The notes under the pieces are model-generated. The model was not told where the DNA came from. It made no database searches and worked only from the letters and a program-made list of their open reading frames with translations. Shown piece after piece: positions 3,586 through 23,343 of a stretch of DNA of 24,049 nt (positions are counted from its first letter, which is position 1; each line of letters begins with the position of its first letter). The stretch comes from Saccoglossus kowalevskii (Eukaryota > Hemichordata > Enteropneusta > Harrimaniidae): the NCBI RefSeq assembly GCF_000003605.2, contig NW_003143801.1, positions 191,183-215,231 on the forward strand, written 5' to 3'. Position numbers and translations under genes: made by a program.

Positions 3586-3814
3586 TAAAGTCAACTTTTG
3601 CCTCCATTCACAAATTTGAAACCCCAAATAATTTTTTCAAAAATATTTATTATGACTCGTAGCCAATAGAAAATTAAAAAAACATACAGAGAATTACATA
3701 AAAAACAGGCAAAATGTCACAACAAAATGGGTTATCCCACAAATATAAACATGTTTTGCTTACATGAACTTCTGCAGAAAGCACTCCAATTAATATTGCA
3801 AAAAACTCAAAAAC

Positions 3815-4725
3815 ACTGTTGTTGACTGTTGACAGTTGAGCTGTTAAAAAGATAAACACATCCCAAACAGAATTTAATTTCAGAAAAAACACGGGGTGTT
3901 TATTTACAGTTTGTTCATTTACTGTAATTTCTAAACAATGTACCTGTCAGTTATCAAGAAAATGCAGTATAAACCAGTCAACCTTTATAGTAAACAGGAC
4001 TAGAACAATGATGGTTGGGAAAAAATCTCCAGTAAATATTGATGTGTATTCTGATCAGGTCAAAATCACAGATACGTGACTGATAACCCCCAATCTATGT
4101 TGACTACTTGCACTGCTGTTGTCTGTTGTCTGTTGACAGTTGAATTGCTTATAAAGATATAAACACATCCAATTAAAAAAAAAGAAGTGATTTTTATTTA
4201 CAGTTTGTTTATTTACTTAAATTTTTAAACAATATACATGTTTGCAAGAAAATGCAGTATATGCCAGTCAACTTTTATAGTAAATAAATAGAACAAGAAC
4301 AATGATGGTTCTAAAAAATCTCCCGTAAATTTTGACGTGTATTCTGATTGGAAATAGAGGTCAAAATCAAAGATACATAATGACCCACAATCTATGTTGA
4401 CTACTTGCACTGCTGTTGTCTGTTGACAGTTGCTTATAAAGATATATAAACACATCACAAACAGAAGTCAATTAAAAAAAAAAGTGGTGTTTATTTACAC
4501 TTTGTTCATTTACTGTAATTTCTAAACAATGTACCTGTCAGTTAACAAGTAAATGCAGTCAATCTTTATAGTAAACAGAACCAGAAAAATGATAGCCTTA
4601 AAATACCCTGTAAATATTAATGTGTACTCTGATGGAAAATGGAGGTCAAATTCACAGATATGCTTAAATGCTGACCTCCATATCCATGACCCATTATGTT
4701 GACTACTTGAAATCTTGACTCATTG
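3815..4725. repeat. ~295-bp tandem array, three copies
   Basis: A long unit is repeated three times with a period of 294-297 bp. Anchor points are the TTTACAGTTTG motif (its CAG at 3907 and 4201; the third copy has CAC at 4498). Other shared landmarks are AAATGCAGT, TATAGTAAA, TTGACTACTTG and the CTGTTGACAGTTG / AAACACATC segment that ends each unit. Copies differ by scattered substitutions and small indels, so the expansion is not recent. Open frames on the minus strand within it are repeat shadows. Confidence 0.85.
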
Positions 4726-11879: not shown

Positions 11880-11984
11880 CTCCCCTCCATAATCCCGAAC
11901 GTAATCTTGTTCTTAGATGGTATTCTCTGCAGACGAACTTCCTTTACCCACAATGCATAGCAACTTGTCTAACAACATGGCGGA
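11880..11984 (+). promoter_or_regulatory. Probable QARS core promoter / 5' UTR
   Basis: A pyrimidine-rich block (11878-11888), ACCCACAATGCATAG at about 11947, which resembles the SBS/ZNF143 promoter motif, and AACATGGCGG overlapping the start codon, which resembles a YY1 site, are all typical of TATA-less housekeeping promoters. No TATA box is seen. Two in-frame upstream ATGs (11917 and 11953) would add 20 or 8 residues, but these lack similarity to animal GlnRS and are acidic, so they do not look like a mitochondrial presequence. The transcription start cannot be fixed from sequence. Confidence 0.4.
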
Positions 11985-12090
11985 CAATCTAGTACAGCTG
12001 TTTACTGGCATCGGGTTGAGCGAGCAAAAGGCAAAGGAAACTATAAAGAATGAAGGTCTTGCTGAAGATCTGAGGAAGATAGTTATCGAG
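11977..12090 (+). CDS. QARS1: QARS exon 1 (residues 1-38)
   Basis: This exon encodes the start of the N-terminal domain, with the diagnostic [15 protein letters not shown] helix. It ends at GAG followed by the perfect donor GTAAGT, phase 0. Intron 1 (12091-15677) is the longest visible intron and holds the PHD-bearing transposon. Confidence 0.93.
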
Positions 12091-15000
12091 GTAAGTCCTG
12101 GTTAAAGTTTGCTAATAAATTCTAATGTAGCGGGGAGAAATCACGCTCGAAAATGAGTCGTGGCGTGGAGCCCCCATCAATGATGTTACTGGTGTCATTC
12201 ATTATATGTTCGAACACTGTATCGTTTACGTTGGATCCTAACACTGCATTAAACAAAAATATTAGATTGACATGCAGAACCTAAGTACCCACAGCCATTG
12301 GCGTTTCTTGTTTAATGTTCAAGTGCATTTTTTGTTTTGTTTCATTTGTTTAATACACGACACTGACAACTTTTGTTTTTAGTTTGTTCCAGTTGCTCAA
12401 TCATTGCATCAGCCTGACATTTAATAGTAATCGTAAAACGCTTTACAAGTTACTTTTAGGAGAGATCAAGAAGTATAGTAAAGCTAGAGAAATTCTTGAA
12501 ATGCTTTAAATACTACTGGTGAATGATCTATAGTAATTTAATTGTTTTCTTTGACCATCGCCTGCAGTGTTATTACTGGCATTTACTGAATATCTGCCCC
12601 ACAGGGGCCTTTCTCCCCAGTCAGATCTGCAAAAATATTGACTGAAAATACGTATTTTCCTGGAACTTTGATTCTTGATTCATTGTTATGTTGGTGTCAC
12701 AAGGTCATGGGTTCAAATATTAGGCCAAAACAGTTTTCAGTATTTTTACTACTTAATGTGTGGGTTCTTAAATTATGGGAATTGATAATTTAGACTGATA
12801 GGAACCAGTATAGTTCAATACAGTTATATGCATACCGATCAATCTTACTCGTACAACCCCACACATGAGTTAGATGAAAGCATAGTTTATTAGGTACACA
12901 AAATATATATTTGGTCACGGTTACTAAAAGAATGGTTAGGAAACTCACTTGGTCCTTTTGTTAGTATGTGCATGGAGATAAAAAAAGAAGGAGCAGTGAT
13001 GCCTATTGTTTCCTTTGTGTACTAGGATAGTTGGCGATTGTTTGCCGAGCACACAATGTGTTATCTGTTTTCCTATTATCTGTTTAATCCCTTAAGGGGA
13101 TTAAGTATTTCGAAACTTCGGAAATTATGCGAATGAACTGTGCATGTGCAGAACCAGAGTAACAAACATGACGTCAGGCGTGAGTTTCCGTAGAAATTTG
13201 CGATATAGTTGAAGATTTTTATGCGGAAAAAATGGGCAGACTAGGCAGTAGTTGAAAATGAACTACTGGGTAGTAATTTTTCAGCAGTCCTTTCGTATAT
13301 GTGGTGGTGAAGCAACAAAAAGCATGATTGCATGTGACAGCAACGACTGCACGGTGAAATGGTTTCAATACGAGTGTACAGGGTTGACAGCAAAACTATA
13401 CCATCGCACCAATAGATAACTGCTCGCTGTCGCATGCCATATTTGACAGTGATTTTCAAAAGCAGAGGATGCAAAGATTCTATAAAAAGTTAAATATTTT
13501 TGCGAAATTCTGTGTATCATATAAATGAGCAGAATTAAATGTCCAACTGTTTAGTTCCTGGTGTGTAGTGTGAATGGTGACTTCTTGTTTTCAACAAAGA
13601 TGACTGCCCATGAGTAACGATCTTATTTATGATCTGCACAATATGATATAATATTTCATCGGAAAATTGTTTCTGTGTAATCTGAATATTATGGTCAATA
13701 CAAAACAAACGGCAACTATCATCGAGTTCAAACACCAGGAATACTAAAGGATTAAGAGCTTAACTCAGCAATGAACAATTTAAGTTAATAGGCTTACCAC
13801 CCCACATTGAAATAAAAAAAAATATTCTGATTGAAACTGCACTATGGCACCATAGAACTTCATGTGTCACAGTCGGGGGGGGGGGGGGGAATGGCCGACT
13901 TGTTACTTGGAAGAAAAATGTCTGCAAACTTCAAGAAAATGAAACTTGCTTTGTTTAATTAAGCTATTATAGTTCTCTTATAAAAGGCTCACAGATTCTA
14001 TTCAATGTACAAAATAAACTTGTGAAGCATCCCGAGATGCATTTTTGGGGTACAAATTTTAAACTATAAATACTAATTTAACAATGCGTGGTACTAAATA
14101 TAATTCCATTCGATTTCCCACAATTTTCCCAAACTATCATGACAAAGGCAGACAAAATGGTTGACGTCACTAACTTCAACAATAAGTGTTATTTTTTAAA
14201 ATAACGATTGAAACTAGTTTTGATAATTACTGTTCCATATTAATACACCCAAAACAATATCTTAGTAACAAATACTAACATTTTAGAACATTCACAGACA
14301 GAGTTTTAGAAGTACAAAATGCCATTCACAGACAAAACAAACAATCGGTATTTTCATTTTTCGAGAACAACGAAACTTTGAATATCACACAACCTTCGCA
14401 CAGAAGTTGGTGATGTTTTACGTCGATCTTTAGACTTAATTAGCTCTATTTCTTCAGTTTAGTGGACACGCATGAAAAGCAAGCGAAGATTGCAATATAA
14501 GCGATGACATTATAGTGGTTGGACACGCATCGAAGTGAAGTCAACGGTAATTAGCATTTCTAACAATAGAGTTTCCTAACCATTCTTCTAGTATACCGGT
14601 AGTTCTCGTATGGAGCTCACTGCTGTGGAGGTTACAAAATTACGCACTGTAGACACCACAGCAAGGTCGGTAATGATCCAGTGACAAGAGGGAGGGAGAC
14701 ATTACTTAGTCCTCACATATACACTTGTGAAATGTTATATAAATAAACTAGCTAGAAAAATAACAATTCTAGAAATTAACAGCATAGTACAAAACATGTA
14801 ACTGTAAGCCCAGGACTGAATAGTGTATGTATGTTGGAATGTTCTCTATCTGACGTTTCCCCAGACTTCTCAGACTTGGATATTTAATGCCAGTTTGGCT
14901 ATGGTAGTACTTGGTTTTGCTCGCCAGATTTCAGGGTCATGTACAGTGTGAACCCAATTTGTCGAACAAGATCTCAGTAGCAACAACCTCAAACCATGCT

Positions 15001-18000
15001 GTCTCAGTTTTAAATATGATGACCTCACAGTTTATTGTGTCAGTCATTAATTAGTCTATGGCAACTTATCATTTGTCATCTAGATACTCATCCAGCAAAG
15101 TCCAGAGATGCCACCTGGAGCACATAGCACAATCGCTTTCTGTTCGTGTAGTGTCAAATGGGTCTACTGAGCTATAAAATCTATCCCTGATTGTGGGCTG
15201 TTTAAATTTATTCCAATTTATATTATGATAATGAATAAATACATCTCTTATAATATGATCCAGACGCGTTGTGGCAGGCGATGACAGTGAATTTGTCTCA
15301 TGGTGACACAGTTTTAAATTTTTGACCCAGATGTTTCAGTCTCATTAGATAAATTGTCTTCCAAAAATGTGAGGAAATACATGGAACAATTTATAGATAT
15401 ACAGTACAGTTGATATACAGTAAGTCATTTTACAACAGACAGGAATTTTCCCCACTATGTCTGTGTCTCAAGTCCCCACATAGATGTGTAATTGGTAATT
15501 GTCTCATACTTTTCAAACTAATAGAACAAGTCTGTCCAACATATCTATATTGTGGTAAAAACATTGTAAATTACAATGCTACAGTTACTAGGCAACCACT
15601 AGTTTAGATGCAGTTATAGTGCTACTCCTTCCTAGACCAAGCACTTAATAGTTTCTATGCTCCTTATCCTACATTAGGCACAGAATAAAATTGGCAGCTC
15701 TGTGGAAAAAACTGTTGGTACATTGTTATACAATATTGCAACTAGACTTAAACAAAAGAGTCGATCTTCATTACTGGTGGAGTATATTGCAACCAAGAAG
15801 ATCTCTTCAGAAGCACAGCTCACAGGTAACTTTATCTGTACTGAATACAAACCATCTTTCATTATCTTTATTTAATTAATGGTAGTATGTCCCTCGGAAG
15901 TGAGAAAATGTGTGGAAAGTAGCTTTCACTTACTCACAATGTCAAGTCTGGGTTCAAAAAAGTTTAGGTCACCAAACTTGTTTCTTATAGAAATTGTATC
16001 CTTTTATATAATTATCTCCAACTGTTGAAGTTGCTCTCTGGGAGCTTTATTGGGGTATTTTTGATAATTTGAATTTACGCTCATGGGAAAGACTAGCATT
16101 CACCAGGATTTGAAAAAAACACATATTGAATCCTCGTATATTCAAATGCTTCAGCACAGAAAATGTACAGTTGAAGGCAGAAACCTAATTGCTGTGCAGG
16201 GAACAAATCAGTAATTTGATGTGCACAACAATCTGGATGTTTATAGTTGACAGATTCATGTTTTGATGCATTTCAGCGGCTTTTGATTACTTCAAGAGCA
16301 ATCCTCTTGACCCGATTGATATCAGTGCGTTTGAAGCAGCATGTGGAGTTGGGGTCGTTGTTACACCAGAGCAGATTGAAGAAGTGGTAAGTTTCCATAA
16401 GACACATAAGGAAATTGCATCTTCATTTATTCACAGAATGCAATGATGATGATGTTGACTCATTTCATAGTCTTGTAGTAGACATACGCTCGCCATGCCA
16501 TCTCTACTGTTGTCAGGCCTTTGTACATGGAATGTTTGAGAGCACTGTGACCATCCTCTGCCCAATCAGAAAATATTGTACCCCGTATTACCCCGGGCAC
16601 GCGCCCAGGGGCCTGAACATACAAAATTGTGAAAAATTGGGGGTGGGTGCTTACCCGAGGACCACCCCAAAAAAGATTTAAAAAAGTTGTTTTTGTGATC
16701 GTATGATAAGGTCAAATAAAGGAATGCTTTCGTACACTTTGTACACGTACTTATTTCTTGATTTATGCGAGGTTTCAACTTGAATAAATGTGAGCACGGT
16801 CAAGAACTGTGGGAACACTAAGACACAGGGTCAAATTTCAAGAATAAAACTTGTTTTATGTCAGCGAATGAAGTTGTATTTAATACTCATTGAAATTGGC
16901 TACAAAGTATGGTAAGTATTGTAATCAATGCACGGTTACATTTTTAGTAACCGTGATCAGTGCAAGTCGAAACGGCCGGGAAAAACTACCGCTTGTAATC
17001 CAAGATGGCGATGGCCTCATTAGCATAATTTTGTTCACGCACGTATTGATACATCGCATCGTAATTACTGAAGAATAGCAGACAGGGTTATGAAACAAAT
17101 AAACCTTTTATTACTGATGTGAAATGTTTACAAACTATTGTGAATACATAAACATATCCAAATGGCGATACATAAAAAACAGACTGAAAATAAACTCTGG
17201 TCGACCTCATTAACATGATTTATTCACGCACCCACAGACACGACAAAATTATGATGCAACAAGTTCCCATCGTCGGCATGCCTCATTATGGTTATCGTAA
17301 TGGACTTGAGGTCGGCAAAATGTTTTTTCTTCAACGACAGAAAAATAATCCACATGACCATAATGCCATAGCTGTGATGAAGGATGGAAAGAAATTAGCA
17401 AGTTTACGACGTGATGTCTCAAAAGTACTAGCTTCCATTTGCAGTCAGCTGGCACCGGTGTCGCTGGGTGTGTATGATAAAGGGAAGTTGTGCAACCAAA
17501 TTTGCCGAGTTCGCAATTTTCGCCAATAAAAAAATAACTAAGGCAAAAACTCACGGTTTTTCAGCATTTTTGTAATAAAGACATTATTTTCTATCAATAA
17601 TCCGCCCAAAACAGGAACATTTCTACTAATTCTTGTGTTTTTTTCGACGTTTTTTGAAAAACCTGCGATAAGGCTGCGAAAGTAGAACATTCCGGAGGGG
17701 GTGAAACAGAAGAGCCAAACTAAAAATAGTACGCGTATTTTGACCTATACGTGGCCAACCAATGGCTGGACACGGATACGTTTGCGGTCGTTGCCAAAAA
17801 GCTCAGCGTCCATCGCCTGGCGATGCTACGTTTTGAAACCAAAGCTAAGTGCTTCAAACCACTCACCAAGGTATGGATTATTGCAATATTGGATTCATCG
17901 TGAATGAAGAGAAAGCAGAACGTGTGCGCCACACGCTGCGTGGTTCATCTCACGTCGTTAAGTTCCAATGAGTTTTTACGTAAAAACACAAACAAAACAC

Positions 18001-21000
18001 ACTCGCAAAAGAGAACTACTGTAACAAACACACTATTTAAATAAATCAAACGCGTTCGTTTTTGACAAATAATACTTTATTGTTGATCCCGTTCTTGGCT
18101 AAAAATCACCCTGGGCGTTTAACCGAAGATGTCCCCAACATGTAACTTTTGTGAAAACAGGGGGGTGGGCGCTTGCCCAGGGAGGGGCGCGTGCCCGGGG
18201 TAATATGGTAATACTGTAAATAGACTAATTTTCACTGGGTTTAAATTTTGCTGATTTATCATTTCAGACATATTCAGTGGGTTTTAAAATTCACAGTTTT
18301 ATCATTTAGATAATGTGTTCTATGCTAAATTTTACATATTCACTAGGTTTTAATTTAGCGCATTTTCCAGTCAGCGAAATAAGCAAAATTAAAACGCAGT
18401 GAATAATCAACCCTTTTACAGTACCTGTCAACAAGTCGGACATTCTAGTTCTGTTGGACCTTCATTCTAGGGCCTTCATACATATCCTGCCTTGTCATCT
18501 GATTTGCTTTATTAAATTAATATCACTAATAAAACCATTCATAGGTTGAAGAAGTACTGAAAAAACACAAAGATGGATTGATTGAGCAGCGTTATCACTA
18601 TGGAGTCGGATCTATTATGGGTGAGATACTTGATTCATTGCTATATATTTCTAACAATTCAATGAATAATGAAGGTTCAATGAGTGACAAATTGATCATA
18701 CACTGATGAATGTTCTTGTTTCTTCCAGGAGAGGTACGTAGTAAACTGAAGTGGGCTGATGGGAGAGGTATCAAGAATGAGGTCGACATGCAGATACTGG
18801 ATTTGTTGGGACCAAAGACTGACGCTGACAAACAAAAACCTCAGAAAGCTAAGGCAAGTTCATTCATAAAACCACTTTAAAATATATTACTATGTAATGT
18901 GGATTTAAACTGAATTTATTTGCGATATGCACTTGATATGAATAGTGTGAATCTGGATTCATACAAATATAAGCATAATGTTGGTTTTGAGAAAGTACAG
19001 GGCTTGACACCAAGGGTAGTTTTATAACCCAGTATAAGATAAATTATTTGGACAACTAACTAACATCTCACATGCTTTACGGTAGCAACAGAAGCAAAGT
19101 GTATTATAATTTGAACTGTGATACAGGCATTCTCTAAAAGTTACTAAGCATGCTACTGTAACAAACTATACATTTTCTGAAAGCTGTGATTTAGCCAGAA
19201 GTAGTAGTGCATATGCTGTACCAATGTTTGTCTGGGATTACTTGATGACCAATGTTGATTGTGTGGGTTTATTTACTATTCAGACTATTAAAAACACAAT
19301 TAACACTTTTATTAACTTGAATGACCTGTGAATTTTTGCTCAGTGACTGCCATTTAAATTGAATTCACCATAAAATTTTAATCTATAGCCTCAAACTCAG
19401 TCAAAGAAAGAAGAAACAAAGAAAGCAGAAGTTGAGAAAGAGTTAGCCTCTCCTATGGATTCCAAGACTGACTATCAAATAATGGGAGATGCCATTAAGT
19501 TTCACAAGCCAGGTAATATACTCTTAAAAATACTCTGAATTTTTATTCATCCTGTCTAGTTGCTATAGCAATCACAGTACCTAGAAACCTATATTCGCTT
19601 TGTTTTTCAGGAGAAAACTACACTACTGAGGGCTATGTGGTCACTCCAAAAACTATGAAGTTGATGAAAAAACACCTTGAAGAAACTGGTGGTCAGGTGA
19701 GCCATTTGCTACAGTAATGTTCATTTGTACATTAACCCTAACAATCCGCCAGTAATGATGACTGTTGCACTTCTTCTCTAAATTCCACACATGTGTACAG
19801 TTGCAGTTTGCCCTCTAATGACATGGTTGGTTGAGCTGCATATTATTACCTCTTTCTATTCTTTGTTCAGATTCGGACAAGATTTCCACCAGAACCCAAT
19901 GGTATCTTGCATATTGGCCATGCTAAGGCAATCAACTTTAATTTTGGCTATGCAAGGGTACGTATGACCATTACTTTCAGCAATGACGCATAAATATAAA
20001 CTTCAATAATTTGCAAGCTGTTACTTTTTGACAAGTCACTGTTATAGTTTTCATTAATCACTAATGTCAGACCAGTACTCATCTGCAGGTTTTTGCGAGC
20101 CACCTAAAATGGCTGATTGGTGGCCATGTAGTGCAGTAAAGAACACATCCTCAAATCCCATATGGTGGTATTCATTTTTGTTCTTCAGGCCCATGATGGC
20201 ATCTGTTTCCTAAGATACGATGATACAAACCCTGAAAAAGAGGAAGAGAGATTCTTTCGTGGTATTCTTGAAATGGTTGAATGGCTTGGTAAGATTTCAG
20301 TTTCTCATAATCTGATGACTATTGGTTACTACCCCGGGTAGTATATTAATGACCAAAAGCAGAATATTCATTACCCAACAGCATGTGATACTGGTGACCT
20401 TTGACTTTGGGGTGTGATAGTAATGACCTGCGACCTCATGATCCAAATGTAGAATGTATTAATAAGTCACAGCACAATTCATTAATCTTGGTTATAGATC
20501 AGGGCAGTGTGATGGCTATTACATGACTTGAATTTACTGGGTCAACAGACTTTATACATACGAAATGTGTCACAAATTACATTTACAAAATTAGTTTTTG
20601 TCCTTTTCAATGCAAATGTGCTCTGTTGAACTATTCCCATGATGCAATGCACAAAGCTGAGGGAAAATGTTGGGGTTGGTAGTGATAACCATCAGTTGGT
20701 GCCTAGAGGCCAGGTTGTACTGTATTGACGAGTGACATCTTTTTAACTCTTGTTCTAGGTTATACGCCGTACAAAACAACACATGCTTCTGACTATTTTC
20801 ATGAACTATATGCATGGGCCATTGAACTGATAAAAAGGTAACCACATCCCTCTTATCATATGGTATTACCAATAATGTCTGAATAGGGGTATGGGTTATA
20901 CAATTATCAGGGAGTGTATACATATGACGATTTTCATTAACTATATGCATGGACCATTGAACTGATAAAAAGGTAATTACATCCCTCTTATTTCATCGTA

Positions 21001-23343
21001 TGATCACCAATAATGTCTGAATACGGGTATGGGTTGTACAATTTTTAGGGAGTGTATATCTGACTATTTTCATGAGCTATATGCATTGACCATTGAACTG
21101 ATAAAAAAGTAACCACATCCCTCTTATCACATGGTATAACCCAATAATGTCTATGAACGAGTGTAGGTTATACCGGTATATTCTTAGGGAGTTTAGGATA
21201 GTGTGGGTGTAAATGATGATGTGATTTAACCAATGGATCCTTCAGAGTTCCTCTATGGAATCATTGTTGATGTTTACTGCTATACTGATATACCACACAC
21301 ACACACACTGTAAATGTGAACGACAGTGTCAATTTTCTAACCCATACATCGTAGTGTGAAGTACTTAGTGTTTGAATTTTGAGAAAATGAAGAACCTTTT
21401 TAAATGTGACATTTAAAATATATGTTATATCAAGAGTTTATAGATTGGGTGTATGCTAGTTTGTGATACGCAATGAAAGAAGTGTAAATTGACAAACCAT
21501 TGAATTGCAAGATGATCCTAAGACACAGCTAAATTATAAATTCTAATGCAAATTAGTGATTATATAAAAAAAACTGATTAGTGTTTAAATAAATTCAATT
21601 GACGCACACTGAATATGATAATTCTCAACCGCTCATTCACTCAATTTCCTTGAGATCATTATCACATATCACTGTAGGTGGTTATGTATAAGTTGTATAC
21701 CCTTATCTTATAAATACCTGGTTTATATATATGTAGAAAGCTCTCTATGGTAGCTTATTAAAAATCTTGCAAAAGAGTGTAATCAGTGAGTGAAATCAGC
21801 TAATTTGCATAATTGGCATCTTAATTACCTATATAAAACACTTTTACAAACAAATTAGAGCTCATTGATGTGTCTTCCACAAAAAGTTAAAAAAAGTGAG
21901 TTTTACTTTAAAAATCTCCTAAAAGATACATCTCATTTGTTTTCAGAGGTCTTGCATATGTATGTCATCAGAAACAGGAAGAAATAAAAGGACGTAATCC
22001 ACCACCATCGCCCTGGAGAGACAGACCAGTGGAAGAGTCTCTTACATTGTTTGAGGTAAAATCCCTGGCAGATCTTCTCTGTCTAGCCCCCCCCCCCCCC
22101 CCCACAGGTCACCTTGGTCTAGCCCCCAGGCAGGTCACCTTGGTCTAGCCCCCAGGCAGGTCACCTTGGTCTAGCCCCCAGGCAGGTCACCTCCGTTTAG
22201 CACTCAGGCAGGTCACCTTGGTCTAGCCCCCAGGCAGGTCACCTTGGTCTAGCCCCCAGGCAGGTCACCTTGGTCTAGCCCCCAGGCAGGTCACCTTGGT
22301 CTAGCCCCCAGGCAGGTCACCTTGGTCTAGCCCCCAGGCAGGTCACCTTGGTCTAGCCCCCAGGCAGGTCACCTTGGTCTAGCCCCCCGGCAAGTCACCT
22401 TGGTCTAGCCCCCCGGCAGGTCACCTTGGTCTAGCCCCCAGGCAGGTCACCTCGGTCTAGCCCCCATGCAGGTCACCTCTGTTTAGCACCCAGGCAGGTC
22501 ACCTTGGTCTAGCCCCCAGGCAGGTCACCTCTGTTTAGCATCCAGGCAGGTCACCTCTGTTTAGCACCCAGGCAGGTCACCTCTGTCTAGCACTCAGGCA
22601 GGTCACCTCTGTCTAGCACTCAGGCAGGTCACCTCTGTCTTGTCCCAAGGCAGGTCACCTCTGTTTAGCCCCCAGGCAGGTCACCTCTGTTTAGCACCCA
22701 GGCAGGTCACCTTGGTCTAGCCCCCAGGCAGGTCACCTCTGTTTAGCACCCAGGCAGGTCACCTCTGTTTAGCACCCAGGCAGGTCACCTCTGTCTAGCA
22801 CTCAGGCAGGTCACCTCTGTCTAGCACTCAGGCAGGTCACCTCTGTCTTGTCCCAAGGCAGGTCACCTCTGTTTAGCCCCCTGGCAAGTCGCCTCTGTTT
22901 AGCCCCCCGGCAGGTCACCTGTCTAGCACCCAGGCAGGTCACCTCTGTTTAGCCCCCCGGCAGGTCGCCTCTGTTTAGCCCCCCGGCAGGTCACCTCTGT
23001 TAAGCCCCCCGGCAGGTCACCTCTGTTAAGCCCCCCAGCAGGTCACCTGTCAAGCACCCAGGCAGGTCACCTCTGTCTAGTTCCCAGGAAAAGAGTACTT
23101 TATAGCAGTTTTTGTCTTTCGAATTATTGCACTGGGGAACTATTATTTGTAACACTAACAAGTTGAACTATCACAATGACAACATATTTCAGTGTTTTGA
23201 TCTCATTTTCAGGACATGAAAAAAGGTAAACTGGAAGAAGGAGAAGCTACTCTTCGAATGAAGACAATTTTAGAGGATGGTAAAATGGATCCTGTAGCTT
23301 ATAGAATTAAATATACTCCGCATCATAGAACCAAAGATGAATG
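11977..23343 (+). CDS. QARS1: Glutaminyl-tRNA synthetase, exons 1-12 (3' partial)
   Basis: This gene encodes cytosolic class I glutaminyl-tRNA synthetase, which attaches glutamine to tRNA-Gln using ATP; in animals it usually sits in the multi-synthetase complex. Twelve exons join into one uninterrupted frame of 1289 nt (about 430 residues). Residues 1-190 form the eukaryotic YqeY-like N-terminal domain. Residues 180-225 are a Lys/Glu-rich linker. The catalytic Rossmann core begins near 235, with PPEPNG at 267-272, HIGH at 275-278, RYDDTNP at 299-305 and [11 protein letters not shown] at 334-344. The start at 11977 was chosen because [19 protein letters not shown] aligns with the start of the animal protein, and it has A at -3 and G at +4. 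The animal protein is about 775 residues, so the C-terminal ~345 lie beyond the window. Introns after each exon have phases 0,1,0,1,0,1,0,0,1,2,0,2. Confidence 0.97.
13169..13176. promoter_or_regulatory. CRE octamer in the intron 1 element (left)
   Basis: A perfect TGACGTCA palindrome. Together with the octamers at 11369 and 14162 it gives three within 2.8 kb. Confidence 0.3.
13252..13419 (+). pseudogene. Decayed PHD-finger fragment inside the intron 1 element
   Basis: The frame reads [18 protein letters not shown], then WFQYECTGL, and ends at TAA (13417-13419). This matches the PHD finger pattern CxC...MIxCD...C..WFHxxCxGL, the zinc-binding reader domain seen on chromatin proteins and on some transposon proteins. 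Two zinc ligands appear lost: the first Cys is Arg (CGT for TGT), and the His of WFH is Gln. An upstream TAG (13249-13251) closes the frame. These single-base losses and the short frame indicate a dead copy. The minus-strand open frame over the same bases is a shadow. Confidence 0.65.
13875..13889. repeat. Poly-G run (15 bp)
   Basis: Fifteen G in a row inside the intron 1 element. Length is uncertain because of homopolymer error. Confidence 0.8.
14162..14169. promoter_or_regulatory. CRE octamer in the intron 1 element (right)
   Basis: A second perfect TGACGTCA inside the same transposon, followed by C. Confidence 0.3.
15678..15825 (+). CDS. QARS1: QARS exon 2 (residues 39-88)
   Basis: [21 protein letters not shown] and [17 protein letters not shown] match the animal N-terminal domain without gaps. 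The acceptor is CTACATTAG. Starting at 15678, rather than at the next AG (15684), keeps the alignment with exon 1 gapless. It ends phase 1 before GTAACT. Confidence 0.93.
15826..16276 (+). other. QARS intron 2 (451 bp)
   Basis: Bounded by GTAACT and ATTTCAG. I see no repeat or gene inside it. Confidence 0.85.
16277..16386 (+). CDS. QARS1: QARS exon 3 (residues 88-124)
   Basis: [20 protein letters not shown] and TPEQIEEV are the conserved GVGV/TPEQIE segment of the YqeY-like domain. The acceptor is ATTTCAG and the donor GTAAGT, phase 0. The following 2158-bp intron holds the HIRAN element and the MITE. Confidence 0.95.
16931..16955. repeat. 9-bp inverted repeat in the HIRAN element
   Basis: CACGGTTAC and GTAACCGTG are separated by 7 bp and could form a hairpin. 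Its role is unknown. Confidence 0.6.
17215..17529 (+). CDS. HIRAN-like domain protein of the transposon (104 aa)
   Basis: Residues ~17-72 fit the HIRAN pattern: a VxGxxxY strand ([10 protein letters not shown]), a G-K/E-x-hydrophobic strand ([12 protein letters not shown]), the core motif [11 protein letters not shown], then a small-residue turn and [11 protein letters not shown] in place of the usual G-x-ipr..a..La. HIRAN binds 3' single-stranded DNA ends in HLTF/Rad5 and also occurs alone on mobile elements. The frame is intact from ATG to TAA. The usual Gly after the core motif (VG) is replaced by AS. It lies within the TIR element, so it is likely transposon cargo and not part of QARS. 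A short C-terminal tail has no recognised domain. Confidence 0.6.
   Translation: MIYSRTHRHDKIMMQQVPIVGMPHYGYRNGLEVGKMFFLQRQKNNPHDHNAIAVMKDGKKLASLRRDVSKVLASICSQLAPVSLGVYDKGKLCNQICRVRNFRQ
17730..17903 (+). pseudogene. Unrecognised open frame downstream of the HIRAN frame
   Basis: A 57-codon stop-to-stop frame includes [20 protein letters not shown] and [10 protein letters not shown], with no ATG at its start. The composition is protein-like and GC-richer than the intron. I cannot name a family. It could be a further exon or a decayed part of the transposon protein. Confidence 0.3.
18212..18423. mobile_element. 212-bp MITE with long imperfect TIRs
   Basis: TACTGTAAAT at the left and its inverse, ending TTTTACAGTA, at the right start an imperfect inverted repeat of about 50 bp with a shared TTCACTG-GTTT-AATTTTGCT core. 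TA at both ends fits a TA target duplication. The motif is also repeated internally (near 18270 and 18337). No coding potential. It lies 1 bp beyond the end of the HIRAN element. Confidence 0.8.
18545..18620 (+). CDS. QARS1: QARS exon 4 (residues 125-150)
   Basis: [20 protein letters not shown] aligns with the helix and RYHF motif of the animal N-terminal domain. It ends after ATG G before GTGAGA, phase 1. The next intron is only 108 bp. Confidence 0.93.
18729..18853 (+). CDS. QARS1: QARS exon 5 (residues 150-191)
   Basis: [20 protein letters not shown] is the conserved end of the N-terminal domain, followed by LLGPK and the start of the charged linker. The exon ends at AAG before GCAAGT, a GC donor, which keeps phase 0 with exon 6. 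No GT site nearby restores the frame. Confidence 0.92.
18854..18859 (+). promoter_or_regulatory. Non-canonical GC 5' splice site of intron 5
   Basis: The junction is AAG|GCAAGT, matching the U2-type donor consensus everywhere except GC for GT. That is the hallmark of GC-AG introns, which keep strong flanking complementarity to U1. Reading frame and homology on both sides require this junction. GC donors are a minority class and are often linked to regulated splicing. Confidence 0.85.
18860..19388 (+). other. QARS intron 5 remainder
   Basis: The intron runs 18854-19388 (535 bp), from the GC donor to AATCTATAG. No repeat or gene is visible. Confidence 0.8.
19389..19512 (+). CDS. QARS1: QARS exon 6 (residues 192-233)
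   Basis: The first half is the Lys/Glu-rich linker ([15 protein letters not shown]), variable in length between animals. The second half ends DAIKFHKPG, the conserved entry to the catalytic core. The acceptor is AATCTATAG and the donor GTAATA, phase 1. Confidence 0.93.
19611..19696 (+). CDS. QARS1: QARS exon 7 (residues 233-261)
   Basis: [19 protein letters not shown] and HLEETGGQ match the animal enzyme just before the nucleotide-binding fold. The acceptor is TTTTTCAG and the donor GTGAGC, phase 0. The preceding intron is 98 bp, the shortest in the window. Confidence 0.95.
19871..19957 (+). CDS. QARS1: QARS exon 8, HIGH motif (residues 262-290)
   Basis: This exon carries the class I signature. 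[20 protein letters not shown] includes PPEPNG and HIGH (19910-19921), which bind ATP phosphates and form the adenylate site. It continues NFNFGYAR. The acceptor is TTTGTTCAG and the donor GTACGT, phase 0. Confidence 0.97.
20189..20288 (+). CDS. QARS1: QARS exon 9, RxDDTNP strand (residues 291-324)
   Basis: [20 protein letters not shown] holds the conserved RxDDTNP strand. One Asp of this motif corresponds to the residue that contacts glutamine in the E. coli enzyme. The exon ends phase 1 before GTAAGA. Confidence 0.96.
20289..20758 (+). other. QARS intron 9 (470 bp)
   Basis: Bounded by GTAAGA and TTGTTCTAG. Apart from the 17-bp palindrome near its start, and a TGATGCAAT motif (20640-20648) matching the C/EBP-ATF composite element, it holds nothing I can name. 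Confidence 0.8.
20327..20343. repeat. 17-bp palindrome in intron 9
   Basis: TACTACCCCGGGTAGTA is a near-perfect palindrome with 8-bp arms around a single C. It lies 38 bp after the exon 9 donor. No function is evident. Confidence 0.6.
20759..20837 (+). CDS. QARS1: QARS exon 10 (residues 324-350)
   Basis: [20 protein letters not shown] is the conserved SDYF segment; its Tyr is the probable counterpart of the glutamine-binding Tyr of bacterial GlnRS. The exon ends phase 2 at AAAAG before GTAACC. Its 3' portion and donor were copied twice downstream, and only this first donor keeps the frame open. Confidence 0.95.
20788..21195. repeat. ~135-bp tandem triplication spanning exon 10 end and donor
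   Basis: Copy 1 contains the last ~50 bp of exon 10, its donor and ~85 bp of intron. Copies 2 and 3 follow at 135- and 136-bp spacing (ACTGATAAAA at 20826, 20961, and ACTGATAAAA at 21097). Shared landmarks include ACATCCCTCTTAT, CAATAATGTCT and AGGGAGT. Copy 2 has TAA in place of GAA. Copy 3 retains an open exon-like frame. Copies 2 and 3 also keep donors at 20973 and 21109. Confidence 0.92.
21196..21946 (+). other. QARS intron 10, distal part
   Basis: Beyond the tandem triplication, this AT-rich stretch holds only the CA microsatellite. It ends in a strong TTGTTTTCAG acceptor. Confidence 0.8.
21294..21308. repeat. CA microsatellite
   Basis: A perfect (CA)7 run lies within intron 10. It is short, and likely polymorphic only at low rate. 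Confidence 0.85.
21947..22055 (+). CDS. QARS1: QARS exon 11 (residues 350-386)
   Basis: [15 protein letters not shown] and [19 protein letters not shown] match the animal enzyme's insertion into the catalytic core. The acceptor is TTGTTTTCAG, completing the split Arg codon; the donor is GTAAAA, phase 0. Confidence 0.95.
22087..22103. repeat. Poly-C run (17 bp)
   Basis: Seventeen C in a row at the left edge of the minisatellite. It is probably an expansion of the CCCCC inside the repeat unit. Exact length is uncertain because homopolymers are prone to sequencing error. Confidence 0.8.
22104..23090. repeat. 26-bp GC-rich minisatellite, ~38 copies
   Basis: The unit is GGTCTAGCCCCCAGGCAGGT followed by CACCTT. 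I counted 38 copies of its CAGGTCACC core or close variants (CAAGTCACC, CAGGTCGCC). Two main unit types alternate: CTTGGTCTAGCCCCC in the first half and CTCTGTTTAGCACCC in the second. A block of about eight units is itself duplicated with a 208-bp offset (22581 and 22789). Units contain TAG and the period is not a multiple of three, so it is not coding. Confidence 0.97.
23213..23343 (+). CDS. QARS1: QARS exon 12 (residues 387-430, last in window)
   Basis: [31 protein letters not shown] and [10 protein letters not shown] match the animal enzyme. The acceptor is TCATTTTCAG. The exon ends after TG of a split Trp codon before GTACGA, phase 2. Reading through the donor would meet a stop 14 codons later, so splicing to an exon outside the window is required. 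Confidence 0.94.

Follow-up and report, generated by a model that had tools for sequence, protein, structure and literature searches.

Minigenes with duplicated splice sites are said to have been built in the laboratory by Reed and Maniatis in 1986. Duplicated splice signals also arise in genes by partial tandem duplication. In the potato RdRp gene such a duplication runs across an intron-exon boundary and the copied splice signals have been put to use; the 3' side of an intron was copied together with the start of the next exon, and a new intron arose (PMC4974935). The tandem genomic duplication model of intron gain, covered by a review (PMC3443670) and a Drosophila survey (PMC2891723), starts from an exon-internal segment with a latent AGGT. 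A minigene design with duplicated 3' splice sites was borrowed from Reed and Maniatis 1986 in a further study (PMC5389562).

The locus described here, in a QARS gene, shares features with each. As in potato RdRp, the duplication crosses an intron-exon boundary and carries splice signals along with it; but here it is an exon end and the 5' start of an intron that occur in two extra copies, a mirror image of the potato case. As in the tandem genomic duplication model, tandem copies of an AG/GT-bearing segment lie within a gene, whereas that model has a latent AGGT inside an exon and QARS has a real donor duplicated into an existing intron. As in the Reed and Maniatis minigenes, one transcript contains a splice site twice, each time next to its exon sequence and open to competition; those minigenes were laboratory constructs, while the QARS array is natural and diverged. 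No case of an exon end copied with its donor as in QARS was found in the openly licensed literature, screened mostly by title. In our reading, the QARS locus belongs to a known kind of mutation and gives no sign of a new intron or exon.

A three-copy array at the end of QARS exon 10

The window (the whole stretch of DNA analysed, 24,049 nt) carries an animal-type gene for glutaminyl-tRNA synthetase, QARS, on the + strand. It was modelled by hand as 12 coding exons from 11977 to 23343, whose joined frame is open over 429 aa and matches PDB chain 4ye6_A (E 1.1e-187, residues 6–428), which we take to be human glutamine--tRNA ligase; this match bears out the gene name given in the initial annotation. 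Predicted residues across the exon 10/11 region were set beside 4ye6_A, 25 residues each. Exon boundaries come from sequence only, as does everything said below of splicing behaviour, and the least sure boundary is the exon 12 donor, whose partner is absent inside the window. The hand model agrees with the positions proposed earlier for the exon 10 donor GT (20838) and the exon 11 acceptor (21947). The donor modelled for intron 5 is a GC site at 18854 (AAG/GCAAGT). The features around exon 10 are as follows.

20759–20837, + strand: QARS coding exon 10, 79 nt (hand model; joined frame matches glutaminyl-tRNA synthetase)
20838–21946, + strand: QARS intron 10, with the repeat array near its 5' end (hand model)
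21947–22055, + strand: QARS coding exon 11, with the shared acceptor at 21947 (hand model)
20788–20915, + strand: repeat copy 1; exonic part 20788–20837, donor GT 20838–20839, 78 nt of intron, then a 7-nt filler (20916–20922)
20923–21053, + strand: repeat copy 2; donor-like AAG/GTAATT with GT at 20973, 81 nt of intron, then a 5-nt filler (21054–21058)
21059–21192, + strand: repeat copy 3; donor-like AAA/GTAACC with GT at 21109, 84 nt of intron

The array spans 20788–21192 as three tandem copies with periods of 135 and 136 bp, each copy combining the 3'-terminal 50 bp of exon 10 with the donor and 78–84 bp of intron 10. Such adjacent direct copies, each with an exon end and an intron start, define a partial tandem duplication across an exon-intron boundary. 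Tandem Repeats Finder reported 20788–21152 (period 135, 2.7 copies, score 558), and blastn of the array against the window gave off-diagonal matches at E 2e-73 and 8e-35. Ungapped 94-nt copies begin at 20783, 20918 and 21054, the second 83% and the third 85% identical to the first. At lags of 120–150 the best 90-nt stretch reached an identity of 0.83, whereas 300 first-order Markov resamples of 20759–21946 gave at most 0.52. The three-copy array is far beyond chance, and these results, together with a full alignment, confirm the tandem triplication of exon end, donor and intron start that had been noticed.

Pairwise identities between copies were 46/50, 46/50 and 44/50 in the exon part (88–92%) and 67/78, 65/78 and 62/79 in the intron part (78–86%, plus indels). 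Intron-part Jukes-Cantor distances of 0.16–0.25 substitutions per site indicate a duplication that does not look recent. The same divergence bears on whether the genome really has a single copy and the array is an assembly artefact, a concern raised in the initial annotation for which the sequence offers no support. Mis-assembly would be expected to yield near-identical copies, or copies matching two haplotypes; because the copies instead differ at 8–12% of exon-part and 14–22% of intron-part sites and by indels as well, we regard an artefact as extremely improbable.

Proposed origin of the array and tests for upkeep

At each of the two inner junctions AGGGAGT is followed by GTATA and the next copy, whereas copy 3 leads into AGGGAGTTTAGG. 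The same GTATA filler at both junctions, with a different end to copy 3, suggests one founding duplication followed by one expansion. Copy 1 has GCC (Ala) where copies 2 and 3 have ACC; since 4ye6_A also has Ala there, copy 1 appears to keep the older state at this site. We propose that a stretch of about 130 bp over the exon 10/intron 10 boundary was duplicated in tandem, perhaps by replication slippage or unequal exchange, and that the two-copy array later grew to three. As the added copies lie wholly inside intron 10, the transcript from the original donor would be unchanged and the event tolerated. Copies 2 and 3 now seem to be drifting: read in the exon 10 frame, the exon-like part of copy 2 carries a TAA stop in place of E, and copy 3, open in that frame, has a damaged donor.

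Constraint on the extra copies was assessed by two comparisons. Columns identical in all three copies made up 86% of the exon-like part (43/50) and 76% of the ungapped intron part (59/78), with no significant excess in the former (Fisher p 0.18); 8 gapped columns were left out, and three copies give this comparison little power. Nor was there a significant excess of conservation in a block around the donors, the longest identical run being 18 columns (p 0.31, 20,000 shuffles). By these weak tests, the extra copies show no clear sign of selection.

Donor strengths and predicted consequences of their use

Donors were scored with an approximate matrix, and duplex energies were computed against the U1 5' end. 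By these measures donors 1, 2 and 3 scored 3.05, 2.66 and −1.25, with energies of −6.5, −6.6 and −3.2 kcal/mol. Three competing 5' splice sites of nearly equal strength had been proposed within 275 bp. The three GTs are indeed present, at 20838, 20973 and 21109 (271 bp from first to last), and the near-equality stands for donors 1 and 2; it fails for donor 3, which has lost the G at −1 (AAAAAA/GT, against AAAAAG/GT in copies 1 and 2) and scores below all 12 modelled QARS donors (1.56 to 8.82, same matrix). On this approximate matrix, an alternative 5' splice site arrangement, in the sense of at least two comparable donors before one acceptor, is formed by donors 1 and 2 only.

Such scores were compared with the background of GTs in the gene. 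The 11 modelled introns contain 638 further GTs (copies included); the score of donor 1 was equalled or exceeded by 10 of them, that of donor 2 by 14 and that of donor 3 by 110. Within intron 10, GGG/GTATGG at 20889 (3.51), CGG/GTATGG at 21027 (4.43) and AAA/GTGAGT at 21896 (4.01) all outscore the true donor, so score alone is no proof of use or of competition.

The earlier argument from reading frame holds: donor 1 alone stays in frame with exon 11, and reading through it gives AGG TAA. Splicing to exon 11 from 20889, donor 2, 21027 or donor 3 would end the protein after residue 350 at this AGG TAA. QARS is an essential gene, and since the other donors cut the protein short, the gene must keep donor 1. 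With donor 2 the exon would gain 135 nt, becoming 214 nt instead of 79 nt, with the stop directly past the old boundary. Donor 1 is most likely the site joined to the exon 11 acceptor; some low-level use of donor 2 may occur, and the resulting 214-nt exon with its stop would leave that transcript open to nonsense-mediated decay.

We consider it probable that a partial tandem duplication over the exon-intron boundary gave rise to the array, which then expanded once more and is now drifting, with splicing mainly from donor 1. The repeat itself is real, and it is most likely a decaying and harmless leftover rather than a working device. The parity of donors 1 and 2 by both matrix and U1 pairing counts against a leftover and makes real competition possible. 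When two equal donors lie close together, experiments often favour the one nearer the acceptor, and on that preference donor 2 would be the favoured site, which again argues against a harmless leftover. The slightly higher conservation of the exon-like part points the same way, though without statistical significance. If the two truly competed, a sizeable share of QARS pre-mRNA would be spliced from donor 2 and degraded, lowering or tuning output, and the position of the stop right after residue 350 would suit such a role. We think this unlikely: donor scores in intron 10 do not predict use, donor 2 would lengthen the exon from 79 to 214 nt, and the upkeep of copy 2 shows no significant sign. 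Were donor 2 used, the locus would be a natural counterpart of the laboratory experiments with duplicated splice sites, its diverged copies showing which changes are tolerated; were it silent, the locus would show that an intron can take up a copy of a working donor with no evident harm. Whichever holds, this is one locus of a known kind.

Candidate cassette exons within the copies

An acceptor in the repeated intron part, at 20911 or 21049, could in principle combine with a copied donor to make copy 3 (or copy 2) a nascent cassette exon. The in-frame candidate, assessed by frame and by approximate-matrix splice scores, is as follows.

21049–21108, + strand: hypothetical 60-nt cassette in copy 3; acceptor ATTTTTAG/GG, donor AAA/GTAACC

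Its inclusion would keep the frame, meet no stop and add 20 aa, and its acceptor scores −1.42 by an approximate matrix on which the 11 acceptors modelled for QARS span −4.31 to 6.27. That acceptor is, however, equalled or beaten by 39% of 550 intronic AGs, and donor 3, at −1.25, lies under the lowest modelled donor (1.56); an additional helix would probably be damaging to the catalytic domain. The copy-2 version, 20911–20972, is out of frame and stops, so that it would be a poison-exon candidate whose inclusion gives a stop, but its acceptor score is reached or exceeded by 40% of the 550 intronic AGs. A nascent cassette is accordingly very unlikely in our judgement. We give still less credence to a bolder proposal, that copy 3 is already spliced as the 60-nt in-frame cassette, giving some transcripts a second, diverged copy of a 16-residue segment of glutaminyl-tRNA synthetase, with donor 2 functioning as an intrinsic off switch. 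Also considered, and judged unlikely, was recursive splicing at the AAG/GT of copy 2, as a zero-length exon (acceptor −6.05, matched or exceeded by 72% of the 550 intronic AGs).

Searches elsewhere and other features of the window

Two exact-pattern scans, of viral contigs and of genome contigs, yielded no relative. A 23-base pattern had 0 matches in the viral contigs; an 18-base pattern matched 49 loci in the genome contigs, all titled as bacteria and, from these titles, taken as chance. Elsewhere in the window the unit had only three weak matches of 29–36 nt, all at 3829–3864 (81–86% identity, E 2e-4 to 0.008), where a different, 297-bp repeat starts. There, a 29-nt stretch at 3836–3864 is 86% identical to the exon 10 donor region (E 2e-4), and an 18-base donor-region pattern gave one extra match near the start of the 297-bp repeat, with 3 mismatches (0.09 expected from shuffles). 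We lean towards chance as the source of the likeness at 3829–3864. The 297-bp tandem repeat itself runs from 3814 to 4559 in 2.5 copies (Tandem Repeats Finder).

Most of QARS intron 11 (22056–23212) is taken up by a 26-bp minisatellite of about 38 copies (22105–23088, consensus CAGGTCACCTCTGTCTAGCCCCCAGG), and GC content is 0.62 in 22001–23000. Of 8 frames in the window scanned against Pfam, one matched HIRAN and the frame over exon 11 gave a tRNA-synt_1c match below threshold; the other six gave nothing. The HIRAN match (E 8.3e-10) is in a 111-aa frame at 17194–17529, inside a 1.6-kb stretch of QARS intron 3 (16583–18208) flanked by 24-nt inverted repeats that are 96% complementary. The inverted repeats and HIRAN frame suggest that this stretch is a DNA transposon encoding a HIRAN protein.
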